Under the pieces are notes generated by a model, which saw only the letters and a list, made by a program, of their open reading frames with translations, searched no databases and was not told where the DNA came from. From contig NZ_JACYXE010000001.1 in assembly GCF_014857905.1 (NCBI RefSeq), positions 372,001-436,000 of the forward strand: 64,000 nucleotides of DNA. The letters run 5' to 3'. Position 1 is the stretch's first letter, and the number at the start of each line of letters is the position of its first letter. This document shows positions 16,537 through 57,413 of the stretch, in pieces. The translations under genes and the position numbers were made by a program. This DNA is from Agilicoccus flavus. GTDB lineage: Bacteria > Actinomycetota > Actinomycetes > Actinomycetales > Dermatophilaceae.

Positions 16537-17429
16537 CGGGCGAGCAACCGGTCGAGGGCGGCCCGCACCCGCTCGGCGTCCTCGCGGTGCTTGACGGCGG
16601 CGCCGAGGGTGGCGGCGGCCGTCTCGACGTCGAGGTCGTCGGCGCCGAGCTCGGCGAGGGCCCGCACCCAGTCGAGGGTCTCGGCGACGCCGGGGGCCTT
16701 GAGCAGCGCGGGGTCGGCGCGCAGGTTCTGCACGAGGGTGACGACGCTGCGGGCGAGGCGGTCGGAGACCTGCGGGGCGCGTGCGGCGACGATGGCGAGC
16801 TCCCGCTCGAGCCCCGGGTGGTCGATCCAGTGGTAGAGGCAGCGGCGCTTGAGGGCGTCGTGCAGCTCGCGGGTGCGGTTGGACGTGAGGACGACGACGG
16901 GCGGGACCCGCGCCCCGATCGTGCCGATCTCGGGGATCGTCACCTGCCAGGTCGAGAGCACCTCGAGCAGGAACGCCTCGAACTCGTCGTCGGCGCGGTC
17001 GATCTCGTCGACGAGGAGCACGCACGGCGCCTCGCGCAGCGCGCGCAGCACGGGCCGCGCCAAGAGGAAGCGCTCGTCGAAGAGGTCGGCCTCGACGGCC
17101 TCCAGGTCGGTTGCCGCGTCCCGGGCGCCCGCCACCGCCTCGACCGCGCGCAGGTGGAGGATCTGGCGCGGGAAGTCCCAGTCGTAGAGCGCCTGCGACG
17201 CGTCGATGCCCTCGTAGCACTGCAGCCGGAGCAGGGGCACGTCGAGCACGGCCGCGAGACCCTCGGCCAGCGCGGTCTTCCCCGTACCCGGCTCGCCCTC
17301 GAGCAACAGGGGTCGGTGCAGCCGCAGCGCCAGCCACGCGATCGTCGCGAGCGCCTCGTCGCACAGGTAGCCCGTCTGCGCGAGTCGGCCCGCGAGGTCG
17401 GGCGCGGCGGGGAAGGCGTCCTGATCCAT
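16533..17429 (-). CDS. coxD: CoxD-like MoxR family AAA+ ATPase
   Basis: 298 residues with Walker A GEPGTGKT (~45-52), Walker B CVLLVDEIDRAD, sensor 1 VVVLTSNRTRELHDALKRRC and the MoxR lid domain. The CYEGIDASQALYDWDFPRQ segment is characteristic of CoxD/MoxR partners of VWA proteins. ATP-driven remodelling probably activates the cox hydroxylase. ATG 17429 is preferred; in-frame starts at 17441 and 17444 exist. It is the first gene of the D-E-F operon, so structural and maturation genes are separated by the ANTAR block. Confidence 0.87.
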   Translation of the reverse strand: MDQDAFPAAPDLAGRLAQTGYLCDEALATIAWLALRLHRPLLLEGEPGTGKTALAEGLAAVLDVPLLRLQCYEGIDASQALYDWDFPRQILHLRAVEAVAGARDAATDLEAVEADLFDERFLLARPVLRALREAPCVLLVDEIDRADDEFEAFLLEVLSTWQVTIPEIGTIGARVPPVVVLTSNRTRELHDALKRRCLYHWIDHPGLERELAIVAARAPQVSDRLARSVVTLVQNLRADPALLKAPGVAETLDWVRALAELGADDLDVETAAATLGAAVKHREDAERVRAALDRLLAR

Positions 17430-17504
17430 GCCTGCCAGCATCACCCACGACCGCGGCGGGCGACACCGGTGGGTCGCGCGAGTCCGTGCCGCGAGGGTGT
17501 CCCG

Positions 17505-18590
17505 TCAGCGCAGGCGGTGCCGCGACACGACGTTCCAGATCGTGCTCGAGGCGTCGATCTCCTGGCTCGTCCCGGGGCCGCCGAGCGACGGGGGCGCGCC
17601 GGGCCACGTGTGACCGCCGTCGGAGATGTCGTAGCGCTCGACGAGCGCCCCCCGGTCGCAGCCGCCGTAGCGGAAGCGGGTCACGTGGGGGGTCAGCGCC
17701 GTCGCGACGGGCACGGGCCGGCACCCGTCGAGCTGCGCCCAGCGTTCCGTCGCGAGGGCCACCGAGTAGCCCCAGCGCCGGTCGCCGTTGCCGGCGAACG
17801 GGTTCACCTGGTCGACGTACCCGTGGAACGTCACGACCGGGACCGGCCGCGCCGGGCGGCAGTCGGCCTCCTCCGGGCGCGAGGTGGCCTCCGGCTCCGG
17901 GCGCCCGGCGCGCACGCCGGCCACGGGGGCGACGGCCGCGACGACGTCCGAGGCGTGACAGGCGAGCGCGGAGGACATCCGGGCCCCGCCCGAGAATCCG
18001 GTGGAGTAGACGCGCCGCGCGTCGAGGCAGCCGCGGGACACGAGGTCCGCCACGACCTTGCGCAGGAACGCGACGTCGTCGCGCGACCCCGGCGGCGGCA
18101 GCTGCCCCGCGGTGGTCGGGACGTTCGGCACGTTCCACGCCCAGTTCCCCTCGGGGTCGGGCGCGCCCTGCGGGGGCAGCGGGAGGACCCCCTGCGGGTA
18201 GGCGACGACGAAGCCGTGCCGATCGGCCACCGCATCCATCCGGGTCAGCTCCGCCTGCCGACGGGCGTTGCCCGAGCTCGGGTGCAGGTTGAGCATGAGC
18301 GGTGCTCGCCGCTGAGCCCTCTTCTGCGGCGGCACGTGGACGCGCACCCGGTAGGTCGTGCCGGCGTAGCGGACCGGCACCGAGGTCGTGCCGGGGCGCA
18401 GGGCCGAACGGCACCGGCGCGGGGCGGCGTCCACGCCGCCCGTCGCGGGGCCGGCCGACCAGGCCGTCGGGGCCGCGGGGCTCGCCGCGGTCGGGCCCGC
18501 GGGCGCCGCGGCGGCGGACCCCGCCGGGGTCACGATCCCCCCGGCCAACAACGCGAGCGAGGCGAACGACGTCACCACAGGACCGGCCAT
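17505..18590 (-). CDS. Secreted PHB-depolymerase-like esterase (LpqC family)
   Basis: 361 residues. An Ala/Gly-rich signal peptide (~1-30) precedes an alpha/beta hydrolase with the nucleophile elbow GFSGGARMSS, an oxyanion strand LMLNLHPSSGN and the catalytic histidine region ISDGGHTWPG. A likely Asp is in TFHGYVDQVNPF. Poly(3-hydroxybutyrate) depolymerase-like and feruloyl-esterase-like enzymes share this pattern; the exact ester is unknown. Start ATG 18590 has an AAGGGGA ribosome site. It is divergent from the siderophore importer. Confidence 0.78.
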   Translation of the reverse strand: MAGPVVTSFASLALLAGGIVTPAGSAAAAPAGPTAASPAAPTAWSAGPATGGVDAAPRRCRSALRPGTTSVPVRYAGTTYRVRVHVPPQKRAQRRAPLMLNLHPSSGNARRQAELTRMDAVADRHGFVVAYPQGVLPLPPQGAPDPEGNWAWNVPNVPTTAGQLPPPGSRDDVAFLRKVVADLVSRGCLDARRVYSTGFSGGARMSSALACHASDVVAAVAPVAGVRAGRPEPEATSRPEEADCRPARPVPVVTFHGYVDQVNPFAGNGDRRWGYSVALATERWAQLDGCRPVPVATALTPHVTRFRYGGCDRGALVERYDISDGGHTWPGAPPSLGGPGTSQEIDASSTIWNVVSRHRLR

Positions 18591-20840: not shown

Positions 20841-21865
20841 GCACCCTCGACGTCGTCACGACGGGCCGCGTCCGCCGCTCCCGCGCCCGGCTCCTGGCCG
20901 CCCTCGGGATCGCCGTGGGCGTCGTCGCCGCCTTCGCGATCAGCCTCATGGTGGGCCACACCTTCTACGGCCCGGGCGAGGTGTTGCGCGTCGTCCTCGG
21001 CGAGACCGTGCCCGGCGCGAGCTTCACCGTCGGCGAGCTGCGCCTGCCGCGGGCGGTGCTCGCGCTCCTCGTCGGCGGCGCGCTCGGCATGGCCGGCGTC
21101 ACCTTCCAGACGATGCTGCACAACGCCCTCGCCTCGCCCGACATCATCGGCGTCAGTGCCGGCGCGAGCGCGGCCGCTGTCTTCGCGATCGTCGTGCTCC
21201 ACCTCGACCAGGGACTCGTCTCCCTGTTCGCCGTCGTCGCCGCGCTCGCGACGGCGCTGGCGATCTACGTGCTGTCGTACCAGGACGGCGTGGCCGGGAC
21301 GCGGCTCATCCTCATCGGCATCGGCATCGCCGCGATGCTGCACTCGGTCGTCTCCTACCTGCTCGCGGGCGCCGCGGCGTGGGACCTGCCCGCCGCGATG
21401 CGCTGGATGATCGGCAGCGTCAACGACGCCGAGTGGTCGACCCTGGCGCCGCTCGCGATCGCCGTGCTCGTCCTCGGGCCGGTCCTCGTCTCCCAGGCCG
21501 GCAACCTGCGGCTGCTGCAGTTCGGCGACGACGCGGCCGCGGCGCTCGGGGTGCGGGTCGAGCGCACGCGCGTCATCAGCATCCTCGCCGCCGTCGGGCT
21601 CATCGCCTTCGCGACCGCGGCCGCCGGGCCGGTCGCCTTCGTCGCCTTCCTCGCCGGGCCGATCGCCGCGCGGATCGTGCCCGCGGGCGGGTCGCTCATC
21701 GTCCCCGCCGGGCTCGTCGGGGCGTTGCTCGTGCTCGGCGCCGACCTCGTCGGGCAGTGGGCCTTCGACGCCCGGTACCCGGTCGGCGTCATCACCGGCG
21801 CCTGCGGCGCGCCGTACCTCGTCTACCTGCTCGTGCGCACCAACCGCTCCGGAGGCTCGCTGTGA
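20837..21865 (+). CDS. FecCD-family siderophore ABC transporter permease 2
   Basis: 342 residues, a second BtuC-like permease: ELRLPRAVLALLVGGALGMA, FQTMLHNALASPDIIGVSAG, AAAGPVAFVAFLAGPIAARI. It differs enough from permease 1 to form a heterodimer, as in FepD/FepG. It is translationally coupled at both ends (GTGA at 20837 and 21862). Confidence 0.9.
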   Translation: MSTLDVVTTGRVRRSRARLLAALGIAVGVVAAFAISLMVGHTFYGPGEVLRVVLGETVPGASFTVGELRLPRAVLALLVGGALGMAGVTFQTMLHNALASPDIIGVSAGASAAAVFAIVVLHLDQGLVSLFAVVAALATALAIYVLSYQDGVAGTRLILIGIGIAAMLHSVVSYLLAGAAAWDLPAAMRWMIGSVNDAEWSTLAPLAIAVLVLGPVLVSQAGNLRLLQFGDDAAAALGVRVERTRVISILAAVGLIAFATAAAGPVAFVAFLAGPIAARIVPAGGSLIVPAGLVGALLVLGADLVGQWAFDARYPVGVITGACGAPYLVYLLVRTNRSGGSL

Positions 21866-32414: not shown

Positions 32415-32724
32415 GGGGGAGGGTCCCTTCTGTCGATGACGGACGAACGGGCTCGGAGGGGTCGCACCCCCCGCGCGCACGCGAACGCCACGGCGGCCGC
32501 GTACGAGAGCGGGACCACTCCGACAGCCGCTCCCCCTACCCTATGCCGACTCCCGCGTCGCCGAGGATCGGCCTGCCGGGCGCGCATCCGCCGGACCCGC
32601 TCTCGCGCGACGTGACGCAGTTTCGACGATGCGCGGGCGACCACGGACACGTGGTCGGCCCCGTGACCGGCAACGATGCGAAATGAGGGGTCGCGCCGCG
32701 TCGTCGTGACTGCGTGACGCTCGA

Positions 32725-42117: not shown

Positions 42118-43057
42118 CGAACCCCTCCCCCGTCAGAGCGATGAACCGTTCCTCCAGGCCAGGGGCGGTGACGGCGAAGCCGCGCACCCGGACCCCCGCC
42201 GCGACGAGCTCGGCGACGACCCGCTCCGGCGGCACCCCCGCCACGACGGTCTCGAGGGCCTCGACGCCGGGGGCGGCGTCGCGCAGGTCGCGCACGTCGC
42301 GCGCACCGAGCCGCACGAGGACGTCTCGGGCCGGCACGAAGTCCGGGGTGTCGACCCGGGTCACGGCGTCCGCGCCGCCGAGCACCTCCGCGACGGAGCC
42401 CTGCGCGACGAGGCGGCCCGCGTGCATGACGCCGAGGTGGGTGCACACCTGCTCGATCTCGCTGAGGAGGTGGCTCGAGACGAGCACGGTCGTCCCCTCC
42501 CGGGCCAGCGCGCCGATGAGGGCCCGCACCTCGCGCGTGCCCTGCGGGTCGAGGCCGTTCGTCGGCTCGTCGAGGACGAGCAGGTCGCGGGGCGCGAGCA
42601 GCGCGGCGGCGATGGCCAGGCGCTGCTTCATGCCGAGGGAGTAGGCGCGGAAGCGCTTGTCGGCGGCCGGGGTCAGCCCGACCCGCTCGATCGCGGCATC
42701 GATGCGGGTGCGGGAGGTGCGAGGGTCGGCGCGGGCGTCGGCTGCGTCGAGGCGGCGCAGGTTGGCCCGGCCCGAGAGGTACGGATGGAACGCCGGGCCC
42801 TCGACGAGCGCGCCGACCCGGTGCAGGACGTCGACGATCGCCCCCGGCGTGCCGGCCCCGAGCACCTCGATCTCGCCCGCGCTCGGCCGGACGAGGCCGA
42901 GGAGCATGCGGATCGTCGTCGTCTTGCCGGAGCCGTTCGGGCCGAGGAAGCCGTAGACACCGCCGGCGGGGACGCGCAGATCGATCCCGTCGACGGCGCG
43001 CTGGGCGCCGAAGGTCTTGGCCAGCGAGGACGTGCGGACCGCGAGGGCCGCGCTCAC
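42104..43057 (-). CDS. ABC transporter ATP-binding protein
   Basis: 317 residues starting at GTG 43057. Walker A GFLGPNGSGKTTT, signature YSLGMKQRLAIAAALLA, Walker B LLVLDEPTNGLDPQGTREV, H-loop VLVSSHLLSEIEQV. The C-terminal domain (~225-317) is usual for NosF/BcrA-like exporter ATPases. Its GTG overlaps the LolA-like stop by 4 bp, so the exported protein and the transporter are made together. Confidence 0.88.
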   Translation of the reverse strand: MSAALAVRTSSLAKTFGAQRAVDGIDLRVPAGGVYGFLGPNGSGKTTTIRMLLGLVRPSAGEIEVLGAGTPGAIVDVLHRVGALVEGPAFHPYLSGRANLRRLDAADARADPRTSRTRIDAAIERVGLTPAADKRFRAYSLGMKQRLAIAAALLAPRDLLVLDEPTNGLDPQGTREVRALIGALAREGTTVLVSSHLLSEIEQVCTHLGVMHAGRLVAQGSVAEVLGGADAVTRVDTPDFVPARDVLVRLGARDVRDLRDAAPGVEALETVVAGVPPERVVAELVAAGVRVRGFAVTAPGLEERFIALTGEGFDVSG

Positions 43058-44595: not shown

Positions 44596-44741
44596 ACGAA
44601 CCGCCCCCCGCTGCCGCGCCGCGGCGCGCCCGTGTCACCCTCGCCGCCCGCGGGTAGGGACGACGTAGACGAGACGCGTTGCGCTCACGGCCGGCCGGGC
44701 CGCCGACCCCGCGACGCTCACCCACCCGAAGGAGCGGCACC

Positions 44742-45233
44742 ATGACCGATCACGACACCGACCGGTTCGTCCGGACCTACGTGCAGCATCACTGGGTGGC
44801 GTCCAAGGGGGGACTCGACGCGTTCCGCCGCTGCGCCCGCACCCTGTCCGTCCCGCAGGGTCGGCCGGTCCTCGCCCGCCTGGCGGCCGAGGTCGCCCAG
44901 GACCGCGCGAGCCTGCGCTCGATGATGCGGCGCCTGGGGGTCGGCACCGCCCCCGCGTGGCAGGCCGCCGCCTCCGTCGGGGAGACCCTCGGCCGCCTCA
45001 AGCCCAACGGGACCCTGATCCGCCGCTCGCCGTTGACCGACGTGATCGAGATCGAGATGCTCGCCACCGCCGTGGAGGCGAAGAAGTCGGGCTGGCTCAC
45101 CCTGCGCCGCCTGGCCGAGACCGACACCCGGCTCGACGCCGCCGAGCTCGACCGCCTCGTCGAGCGCGCCGACGCCCAGCGCGCCGAGCTCGAGGCCCTG
45201 CGCCCCGCCGCCGTCGACTGCCTCGCCGGCTGA
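44742..45233 (+). CDS. Helical hypothetical protein
   Basis: 163 residues from ATG 44742 with an AAGGAG ribosome site. It is nearly all amphipathic helix (RFVRTYVQHHWVASKGGLDA, LARLAAEVAQDRASLRSMMR, ALRPAAVDCLAG at the end). The four-helix periodicity recalls small ferritin-like or DUF892-type bundles, but I cannot point to metal ligands. It lies 146 bp after the acidic protein. Followed by a 430-bp gap that holds the palindrome and inverted repeat listed next. Confidence 0.65.
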   Translation: MTDHDTDRFVRTYVQHHWVASKGGLDAFRRCARTLSVPQGRPVLARLAAEVAQDRASLRSMMRRLGVGTAPAWQAAASVGETLGRLKPNGTLIRRSPLTDVIEIEMLATAVEAKKSGWLTLRRLAETDTRLDAAELDRLVERADAQRAELEALRPAAVDCLAG

Positions 45234-45383: not shown

Positions 45384-45413
45384 GCGTCACCCTCGCCGCG
45401 GCGAGGGTGACGC
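45384..45413. repeat. 30-bp perfect palindrome
   Basis: A loopless perfect palindrome centred on CCGCGG, with arms GCGTCACCCTCGCCG and its complement. A related but degenerate copy of its left arm (GTGTCACCCTCGCCG) occurs near 44633. It could terminate the upstream gene or be a binding or recombination site. It touches the left arm of the next inverted repeat. Confidence 0.8.
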
Positions 45414-45530
45414 GGATCGAAGAACCGTTCGGACGACATGGCTGGGGGTGCTCGGGGAGCAGACGTCGTCTGACCTGGTCGTTCGTGGCGAGCAGTCGCA
45501 ACGATGTCGTCCGAACGGTTCTTCGATCCG
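45413..45530. repeat. 27-bp perfect inverted repeat with 64-bp spacer
   Basis: Arms 45413-45439 and 45504-45530 are exact complements. Read outward, each arm starts with ATG and encodes Met-Ser-Ser-Glu-Arg-Phe-Phe-Asp-Pro, so both strands have an identical potential translation start. The size suggests a small mobile or invertible element, or a duplicated regulatory site. Confidence 0.85.
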
Positions 45531-45662
45531 GGACGCGCCCGTCGGGCGGTGGCCGAGAGCCGGGGCGCGACGCCGTCGGGCCCGGGCCAGGTAATGCGAG
45601 CATCGACCTCAGGAACCGGCGATTATGTCCGAAGGGACCGTCGAGCGAAAGAGGGTGGGAGC

Positions 45663-46226
45663 GTGGGGCATCCGCGAACCGTCGGGCGGTCGCCCGACGC
45701 GTCGATGTCCCCCGTTCGCGTCACGCGCCCGGCCGCCCTCTCCTCCCCCACGCCGGCGAGCGCCGACTGCACGTTCGGGCCGTGGGACGGGCCGCCGGTG
45801 ACCGCCGCTCCCCTGCTCCGGCTGGCCGAGGCCGGTACCCGGGTCGTCGCCTTCTGCGCCGGTCCCCACCGGCGACTCCTCCTCTGGACCGGGGTCGCGT
45901 GGGGGATCCTGACCTACGTTGCCTTCGCGGTCGACTCCGACGGCCTCGGCGGCCTGCTGTTCCTCGTCACCTCGGTCGTCCTCATCACGATCATGTCGCT
46001 CGGGCCGGTCCTCCTCGGTGCGCGGCCGCGGCGGATCTGGCTCGTCGAGACGCTGGCCGGGACCCTGCTCCTGCTGTCCCTGCTCGGCCAGGTCGTGCCG
46101 TGGAGCATCGGGCCGCTGCGGTTCGTCGACGTCACCTTCTTCGCCGCCTACGTCGCCCTCGTGCTGTGGCTCACGCTGCTTTCCCGGCACGTGGGCGGCG
46201 GCGAGCGTCTCCGGCGTCGCCGGTAG
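45663..46226 (+). CDS. Hypothetical membrane protein
   Basis: 187 residues from GTG 45663 (ribosome site GAGGGTGGGA); ATG 45705 is an alternative. The N-terminal ~60 residues are disordered. Four hydrophobic helices follow (LLLWTGVAWGILTYVAFAVD, LLFLVTSVVLITIMSLGPVL, TLAGTLLLLSLLGQVVPW, FVDVTFFAAYVALVLWLTLL) and a basic tail RLRRRR. No family recognised. Its 3' end runs antisense to the end of the integrase fragment, so it sits at an insertion boundary. Confidence 0.55.
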   Translation: MGHPRTVGRSPDASMSPVRVTRPAALSSPTPASADCTFGPWDGPPVTAAPLLRLAEAGTRVVAFCAGPHRRLLLWTGVAWGILTYVAFAVDSDGLGGLLFLVTSVVLITIMSLGPVLLGARPRRIWLVETLAGTLLLLSLLGQVVPWSIGPLRFVDVTFFAAYVALVLWLTLLSRHVGGGERLRRRR

Positions 46227-46403
46227 GGGGCTGCGGCCGGTGAGGTCGCACCATCGGGTGAATCCGGCCCAGTCGTTGGCGCGTGCCCGGCGGGTGTTGA
46301 CCGGGACGGCCGCGTCGACGGCCTCGGCGAGGCGGCGCACTTCGTCGTCGAGCCACGCCGATTCCACCGTGCCCGCCTTGCGGGGGACTGGATGGGAGCT
46401 CAC
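46198..46403 (-). pseudogene. Tyrosine recombinase (integrase) N-terminal fragment
   Basis: GTG 46403 has a GGGAGGGA ribosome site and starts VSSHPVPRKAGTVESAWLDD. The next ~45 residues, with NTRRARANDWAGFTRWCDLT and PLPATPETLAAAH, match the SAM-like core-binding domain of phage-type tyrosine recombinases. Homology then stops near 46200, where the opposite-strand membrane gene ends. The catalytic domain (R-H-R-Y residues) is missing, so the fragment cannot recombine. It is a relic of an integrative element. Confidence 0.6.
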
Positions 46404-46820
46404 AGTGTCGATCCCTCCCGCAAAGCTGCACCGGCGGCCGAGGGAGCCGGTGCGGCGTGTCAACCGCTGTCCGCCGGCGCACCTCGCCTTGGCGGGCGCC
46501 TCCTGACCGGCAGGCACGTCGTGGGGGACGGGGGCTTGAGACCGTGTCGACTCCGGTGCGGGGCTGCTGCCCCGCAGGAGAGCGTTCATGCGGGGGCGCC
46601 CGGTGGCCCACCCGACGACGGCCGCCGCGATCGCGCACAGCGCCGCAGCCCACAGCGGGACTGCTCCGGCCGCTGCACACGCTGCGCACGCTGCGATCCA
46701 GGCGGCGGCCGCGGCGCGGTAGGTACGGGCACGGGCGGGTGTCCGCCGGTACAAGGGGGCAGTGGAGGTGGTGCGCAGGACGCGCCGCCGCTCGGTGCCG
46801 GTGGGGTGGCAGCTCGTCAT
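46404..46820 (-). CDS. Hypothetical small membrane protein next to the integrase fragment
   Basis: ATG 46820 opens a frame starting MTSCHPTGTERRRVLRTTST. It has Ala-rich hydrophobic segments (YRAAAAAWIAACAACAAAGA, LWAAALCAIAAAVVGWATG) that could be two membrane helices. No stop separates it from the integrase frame, so its true C-terminus is uncertain; a frameshift may hide the stop. I recognise no family. Confidence 0.3.
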
Positions 46821-46936
46821 CGCCTTCGCCTTCCTGGTCGCAGGACTGCACACGGTAAGCGCCGCGCGGGTCACCCCGCCGGAGGAGGTGGAAGAGGCGG
46901 GTGTCGGCGAGGCCGGGAGGTTCCTACGTTGGAGTC

Positions 46937-57385: not shown

Positions 57386-57413
57386 GGGCCGCCCACCGAT
57401 CGGTGGGCGGCCC
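57386..57413. terminator. 28-bp perfect palindrome, bidirectional terminator
   Basis: A perfect self-complementary sequence centred on ACCGATCGGT with GGGCCGCCC outer arms. It lies between the convergent flavoprotein pseudogene and the first ricin-type gene. Confidence 0.7.

Follow-up and report, generated by a model that had tools for sequence, protein, structure and literature searches.

A dispersed inverted-repeat element in Agilicoccus flavus and two relatives, with species-dependent arms around a constant, helically phased core

The window, i.e., the whole stretch of DNA analyzed, comprises 64,000 nucleotides of the Agilicoccus flavus genome (G000:C11:372001-436000; the assembly, G000, holds 4.23 Mb in 34 contigs). 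At 45413-45439 and 45504-45530 it carries two exact reverse complements with 64 bp between them, each of which would translate outward as Met-Ser-Ser-Glu-Arg-Phe-Phe-Asp-Pro, and an exact, loopless 30-bp palindrome (45384-45413) has base 45413 in common with the left arm. All three features had been described correctly in an earlier sequence-only reading, which also judged so exact a 27-bp match unlikely by chance; the arm pattern (≤3 mismatches) occurs twice in the window, and its mean in 100 shuffles was 0.00. An integrase fragment reported 0.7 kb away was not confirmed, as the open reading frame concerned (45609-46874) gave no Pfam match over the cutoff and no PHROGs match at an E value of ≤1, and its part 46171-46851 gave no PHROGs match at an E value of ≤0.1.

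With its limits set by a 27-half-site matrix, in which conservation runs from -8 to about +28 relative to GATC, the inward-reading arm B lies at 45407..45443 on the plus strand (model match G000:C11:417406-417444; E value, 2.7e-10) and the inverted arm A at 45500..45536 on the minus strand (model match G000:C11:417500-417536; E value, 5.2e-10). Between them is a core, CCAGGTCAG, at 45470..45478 on the minus strand, which in its extended form covers about 45463-45485. Gaps of 25 and 30 bp separate the core from arms A and B, respectively. This core was found again without any position preference, and in an arm control at the core 16 of 16 arm bases matched at gaps of 25 and 30. A tentative second element with another arm type was located from its core, with arm B (CGCAGTTTCGACGATGCG) at 32616..32633 on the plus strand and arm A (CGCAGTCACGACGACGCG) at 32697..32714 and the core (GCCGGTCAC) at 32663..32671 on the minus strand. 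Its gaps of 25 and 29 agree with the spacing class and 15 of 18 arm bases match, a score reached by 7 of 336 random positions, so that with 48 A. flavus cores tried about one chance match is expected.

The palindrome (45384..45413, no strand assigned) is a separate intergenic feature abutting the element; it had been taken as part of the repeat, and its absence from 13 other aligned loci places it outside the repeat family. Palindromes in 20 first-order Markov copies of the window did not exceed 24 bp. Another loopless palindrome, of 28 bp (GGGCCGCCCACCGATCGGTGGGCGGCCC), lies at 57386-57413 and likewise exceeds the Markov maximum of 24 in 20 copies. The building unit of the 30-bp palindrome, GTCACCCTCGCCGC, is found at 44634-44647, 45386-45399, and 45398-45411, on both sides of the gene at 44742-45233, and has 19 matches in the window (≤2 mismatches) versus 4.8 expected.

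A search for further copies of the arms revealed 15 inverted pairs of this arm type (type 1) in the A. flavus genome, so the repeat is not local. The sequence-only reading had missed these other copies, as well as the oriented core in the middle and the phased distances. The 176-bp window region gave 28 matches in the genome, and the arm pattern (≤3 mismatches) occurred seven times forward and seven times in reverse, versus 0 for a reversed control. A structure-free model recovered 33 half-sites at an E value of ≤0.0036, corresponding to the 15 pairs and three lone half-sites (C5:11061, C32:253602, and C1:105933, the last by model match alone); the weakest of the 33 is near background, and the next match had an E value of 0.007. 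Each element has two copies of the arm in inverted orientation, separated by a spacer of about 64 or 74 bp. The conserved region of the arm extends from about -8 to +28 of GATC (GTSNCnnnGATCGAAGAACCGTACSGACGACATSGA), its outer edge being the least conserved part of the 27-half-site matrix, from which one arm with a 3-base deletion, belonging to the element at C11:287 kb, was excluded. When 247 kb was scanned with this matrix, only family members scored above 11 bits, including two damaged ones near 14. Two arms from a single element agree no better at variable positions than arms from different elements do (n = 13, the C11:287-kb element being excluded). At L031 (G000:C32:253393-253628), three type-1 arms follow one another, the third unpaired.

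The spacers of the A. flavus elements have a mean identity of 0.48 with the core included (31 comparisons), and the only clearly alike copies are those in the window and at C22:12.4 kb (81% over 143 bp). All 15 loci were intergenic according to a home-made gene caller (nine tandem, one of them a lone arm; four convergent; and two divergent; L143 was excluded from this table). In tandem gaps, the element was closer to the 3' end of the upstream gene in six of nine cases, and the core had the orientation of transcription in four and the opposite orientation in four. A search that started from cores also revealed elements of other arm types in this genome, one at L078:12224-12309 (16 of 17 arm bases alike) and one beside the C11:287-kb element (21 of 23).

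The general layout is an arm of ~37 bp, a gap of ~25-26 or ~36 bp, an oriented CATCRNYGCAGGTCAGNGG-like core, a gap of ~31 or ~21 bp, and the inverted arm. In A. flavus the gap between the core (CATCRNYSCAGGTCAS) and one arm is 25-27 or 35-36 bp, and that to the other arm is 29-32 bp, the additional ten base pairs all being on one side of the core. Core and phased distances are common to A. flavus and two relatives, G129 and G130, and the core consensus was built on 60 elements from the three genomes. Cores were first placed with a preference for the expected gaps and then placed again without any preference. The second placement was best or tied at the expected place in 14 of the 15 A. flavus elements (exception, L026), coincided with the phased place in 33 of 37 G129 elements (two of the other four tie there, and a third tie also includes it), and agreed or tied in eight of nine G130 pairs tested. 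A clear core at the expected place was lacking in one G130 pair (L216) and one A. flavus element (L026). Exact GCAGGTCAG is present in 22 of 37 G129 elements but in 0 of 740 shuffled spacers. Furthermore, the distances between arm starts in G129 fall into three groups 10-11 bp apart in 37 of 37 elements (93 bp in 21, 92 in two, 94 in two, 104 in five, 103 and 102 in one each, and 83 in five).

The A. flavus arm was absent from 57 sampled relatives, and the pair pattern had 0 matches in contigs of 84,980 species (the A. flavus genome possibly excluded), where the exact arm had six lone matches, about the chance expectation. Among 396 genomes of the order, a list that holds neither G129 nor G130, a relaxed pair pattern matched A. 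flavus alone. The A. flavus model, run against 186 genomes of the family, gave 22 matches in G129, one weak match each in five genomes (G016, G113, G173, G200, and G202), and none in 179. G129, the second carrier, belongs to another genus of the same family, and its arm, GATCGAAGAACAACACSGACRACATCGAC, is related to but different from that of A. flavus. A model of the G129 arm detected 76 half-sites at an E value of <1e-4, every one in an inverted pair (37 pairs on the chromosome and one on a small contig with the same scores), with the next match at 0.008 among 150 candidates scored; elsewhere in the family it gave weak single matches in G091, G192, G196, and G205. The best pair of 21 G129 spacers reached 0.633, compared with a 95% null value of 0.63 from column shuffles, and by sequence comparison the spacers show no sign of a shared origin apart from the core.

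With the home-made gene caller, 37 of 37 G129 elements were intergenic (19 tandem, 13 convergent, and 5 divergent). None of the elements was spanned by a gene call, and three calls overlap an outer edge by 14-35 bp. Core orientation in tandem gaps was again indifferent to transcription (9 same and 10 opposite). The dnaA-proximal half of the chromosome holds 27 of the 37 elements (one-sided P = 0.004), and the stretch of G129:C1 from 431 to 2130 kb has only two. A polarity of the core along the replichores, suggestive at 20 elements, was abandoned, about 23 of 37 (hand count) pointing with the fork, which is not significant with dnaA placed. A clpB gene (87% over 478 amino acids) is near elements in both A. 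flavus, where it is about 0.8-0.9 kb away, and G129. Other shared neighbors, judged by translated similarity, may be a deacetylase-like gene (54% over 152 amino acids; L073/L164) and another gene (48% over 288 amino acids; L070/L130). About one shared neighbor was estimated by chance, and element positions are mostly unshared.

G130, from the genus of G129, had 0 matches with either model. When 400 kb of this genome was scanned de novo for inverted repeats, one pair was found that flanks the same core with an unrelated arm, CTCGCGCAACAAAGACCGGTCA. This arm (≤1 mismatch) occurs 39 times forward and 39 times in reverse in G130 and is found in 3 of 186 family genomes, the others being G013 and G012 with one copy each. 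Eleven G130 pairs were read, two of which are one duplicated sequence identical including its flanks, and 10 of the 11 have the core at gaps of 35 and 29-30 (some G130 counts exclude the L198 duplicate, L216 without a core, and variants in L210). In the lone G130-type copy in G013, one arm is perfect over 22 bp and the other is degraded. Nothing above control emerged when 300 kb of G013 and 100 kb of G032 were scanned de novo, and the flanks of 10 G130 loci (of about 39) had no DNA in common with the 37 G129 loci at an E value of 1e-8. Arms are near-identical within a genome and different between species, even congeners. Two families of dispersed hairpin repeats, unlike the arms and core in sequence, were also seen in G130 (L177-L196): GCCGAGACAGCCGCCG..., with apparent compensatory changes, at concatenated positions 42443, 153638, and 193455, and GGAAGATGGGATGGCA... 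at 21299 and 115911.

The core also exists without arms. Its pattern occurs in at least 120 stretches of IMG/VR viral contigs versus 11 for the reversed pattern, an excess to which codon usage may contribute. Of 116 viral cores, 63 are between gene calls, 17 are within one, and 36 are too close to a contig edge or the outermost gene to be assigned; no inverted arms above a random null were found around 127 phage cores. A 31-base phage-core query matched 295 of 50,697 phage records at an E value of ≤10 (179 Mycobacterium and 59 Streptomyces by name), many of the 40 listed matches lying 50-260 bp from the right end. Among 72,556 plasmid records the same query matched 53 (27 Streptomyces), several of them close to an end of a linear plasmid. 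Most of these alignments cover 17-25 bp and are weak when taken singly, and related phages are counted repeatedly. In 247 kb of A. flavus sequence, a phage-core matrix gave 11 matches, five of them within type-1 elements (0 in shuffled sequence), and in the scanned 400 kb of G130 it missed the element. The idea that the core is part of a tRNA was discarded after 0 tRNAs were found at 15 viral loci. A literature search, covering best-ranked matches with subscription papers mostly outside, returned no description of the element and no function for the core.

The phasing of three sites, the strict pairing, the divergent spacers, and the independence from transcription suggest that proteins bind the element as double-stranded DNA. 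Arms that are private to a species, at positions mostly not shared, suggest a resident population with turnover, like that of REPINs. We favor, with a probability of roughly 0.5, a long-resident, REPIN-like dispersed population whose arms and core are each read by a putative protein. The arm reader would be a lineage-specific protein, perhaps a transposase or a domesticated one, bridging two arms on one helical face, and the core reader would be a factor conserved across actinobacteria and their phages. Non-autonomous elements would be copied rarely into harmless intergenic places, and arms, core, and phasing would be kept while spacers drift. Where the arm-reading protein is lost, copies would decay, and the broken lone copy of G130 type in G013 hints at this. 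Nevertheless, the lack of recognizably recent distant sisters in G129 is unexpected if elements with near-invariant arms are copied, the phasing kept in all G129 copies looks like function in place, 27 of the 37 G129 elements lie on the dnaA side of the chromosome, and the core, being present also without arms, may be unrelated to mobility. Sites selected in place account for the phasing equally well.

No cognate protein was found for the element. A DUF559/MTES_1575-like gene lies between two G129 elements (L166, about 16825-18150; G129:C1:4059-4060 kb); it was considered as the cognate protein and rejected, having no homologue at the other loci compared. The Y1 transposase of RAYT type (PF01797) is encoded in 4 of 186 genomes (G071, G203, G204, and G205) and not in G000, G129, or G130. 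Target-site duplications were not consistent among 14 A. flavus, 37 G129, and 10 G130 elements, where small matches were scattered and the strongest G129 and G130 signals fall on the arm edge itself. Among the four suggestions of the sequence-only reading, a small palindromic mobile element comes closest, given 15 pairs at positions mostly unshared among relatives; with neither a target-site duplication nor a transposase found, we infer its movement only. The repeat may also be a recombination site or an invertible segment, as had been proposed.

A REP end has a GTAG/GGAG-type tetranucleotide and a palindrome of its own. The arm consensuses of A. flavus, G129, and G130 contain no such tetranucleotide, and the G130 arm contains an 8-bp palindrome, GACCGGTC, whereas the other arms lack a conserved one. 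REPINs have inverted conserved ends, a highly diverse spacer, many extragenic copies, singlets that are decaying remnants, and several end types per genome (PMC3116915, PMC8049555). The present elements resemble them in these points, including the two inverted conserved ends and the diverse spacer, but the carriers here have no Y1 transposase gene, an oriented conserved core lies at helically phased distances, and the arms hardly covary. As for pairing of the ends in single-stranded DNA, the window copy folds strongly, and the two arms of an element differ with no covariation except at one weak column. Because the RAYT enzyme is absent, the element is not filed under REPINs.

It is possible, with distinctly less confidence, that the elements are sites acting in place, where a chromosome-organizing or DNA-bridging complex sits on arm-core-arm, purifying selection maintains the sites, and the arms coevolve with a fast-changing protein. 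This would accommodate the quantized arm spacing of 37 of 37 G129 elements, the absence of lone G129 half-sites above the E 0.008 level, the bias of 27 of 37 toward dnaA in G129, and core orientation independent of transcription. It fits less well with positions unshared between G129 (37 loci) and G130 (10 of about 39) and with their unrelated arms, each arm type being present in one genome with at most weak or single matches elsewhere in the family, and concerted point mutation of three dozen dispersed sites is hard to picture. In enterobacteria, some BIMEs have an IHF site between inverted REP sequences. Like the present elements, BIMEs are inverted repeats located close to the 3' ends of genes, and some classes enclose a protein site; arm sequence, length, spacing, and taxa differ, and here the core is constant and the arms are species dependent.

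Somewhat more doubtful is a dual recognition, in which a core for a common factor and a private, species-specific pair of arms at fixed helical turns act as two keys in dozens of copies, the arms being rewritten or replaced genome-wide as a species mark. The core factor would be one that actinobacteria share with their phages and with linear plasmids, and the private arms might tell the cell's own core sites from incoming phage ones; alternatively, a new arm-reading enzyme might have taken over the population. We know of no repeat family whose arms are rewritten genome-wide. In three genomes of one family, with about 15, 37, and 39 copies, a phased three-part site keeps its center constant while its arms depend on the species, and the core connects actinobacterial chromosomes, phages, and linear plasmids. 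Arms that change around a constant center allow direct tests of a protein-DNA system and its coevolution, and perhaps of a new way in which repeats spread.

We regard it as unlikely that arms are installed at fixed helical distances around existing cores, with spacers of native DNA that are hence never shared. Such writing of arms would be consistent with G129 spacers without common ancestry, with G130 arms that are almost noise-free in the pairs read (pairs chosen by arm match), with cores alone in chromosomes and phages, and with other arm types around the same core in A. flavus. However, the elements read are intergenic although a bacterial genome is mostly coding, two A. flavus copies are alike in both spacer and flank, and no empty site could be aligned when two G129 elements were sought in three congeners, the intergenic DNA being unalignable. 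To our knowledge, no enzyme writes arms in this way.

It is similarly improbable that the elements are ordinary MITEs belonging to an unseen insertion sequence of the DDE or another type. MITEs are short, non-autonomous, dispersed elements with inverted ends, and the inverted ends, length of about 130-150 bp, intergenic location, and unshared positions found here would suit them, as would the two A. flavus copies alike over 143 bp. Nevertheless, target-site duplications are not consistent, conservation of the arm is lowest at its outer edge, and the G129 spacers are unrelated; an interior shared beyond the core, as expected of MITEs, is seen only in the window and C22 copies.

An RNA structure, terminator, or leader peptide is very improbable. 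As a single strand, the window copy forms a strong fold (z = -10.9), and base +24 is T in 22 and C in 5 of 27 half-sites, so that ATG or GTG can be read outward. The start is lost at +23 in one A. flavus half-site, both starts are lost in one G129 element (L136), and third codon positions (TCG, CGG, and GNA) are conserved as much as the others in the 27 half-sites. These equal codon phases led us to reject a coding or leader function. The suggested duplicated leader accordingly gives way to conservation at the nucleotide level, with some copies lacking a start; arms that were unique and conserved as ordinary 5' coding sequence would have spoken against a repeat, and instead the arms recur and have no codon-phase signal. 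Agreement between the arms of an element was significant at one variable column in G129 (24 of 37; P = 0.047), about the expectation for 23 tests, and the A. flavus comparison gave P = 0.21; no other variable arm column covaried in 13 A. flavus and 37 G129 elements. No terminator-like site was found, Rfam had no match at gathering scores in the window or at 11 loci, and neither Rfam nor ARAGORN had a match over the element or core at 15 viral and 24 element loci. Orientation indifferent to transcription also argues against a transcribed function. tRNAs at L032, L126, L161, and L187 adjoin elements and are never on them; elements lie ~80-150 bp downstream of a tRNA gene at L032 1847-1923 (A. 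flavus C34), L161 1439-1512 (G129, 3208 kb), and L187 17962-18035 (G130 C5:318 kb).

A chance inverted repeat is refuted by the 15 A. flavus pairs, the shuffle mean of 0.00, and the 0 pair matches in contigs of 84,980 species (A. flavus possibly excluded).

In four viral contigs (L248, L273, L274, and L340), two inverted cores lie about 394 bp apart, and in L273 they flank a small open reading frame that we label HNH-like. MPME1 and MPME2 are ultra-small mobile DNAs of actinophages and, like the present elements, have inverted repeats; MPME1 differs in being 439 bp long (PMC3029335). The viral pairs of cores are at most candidate MPMEs. Microbacterium phages of clusters EC, EG, and EI likewise carry repeated short conserved intergenic motifs (PMC7302621); the string AGGTCAG is absent from the main text of that report. 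In another viral contig (L286, 12370-13300), ten core-like motifs occur within about 1 kb, several of them joined to GTGGAACC and partly arranged in 97-bp tandem units.
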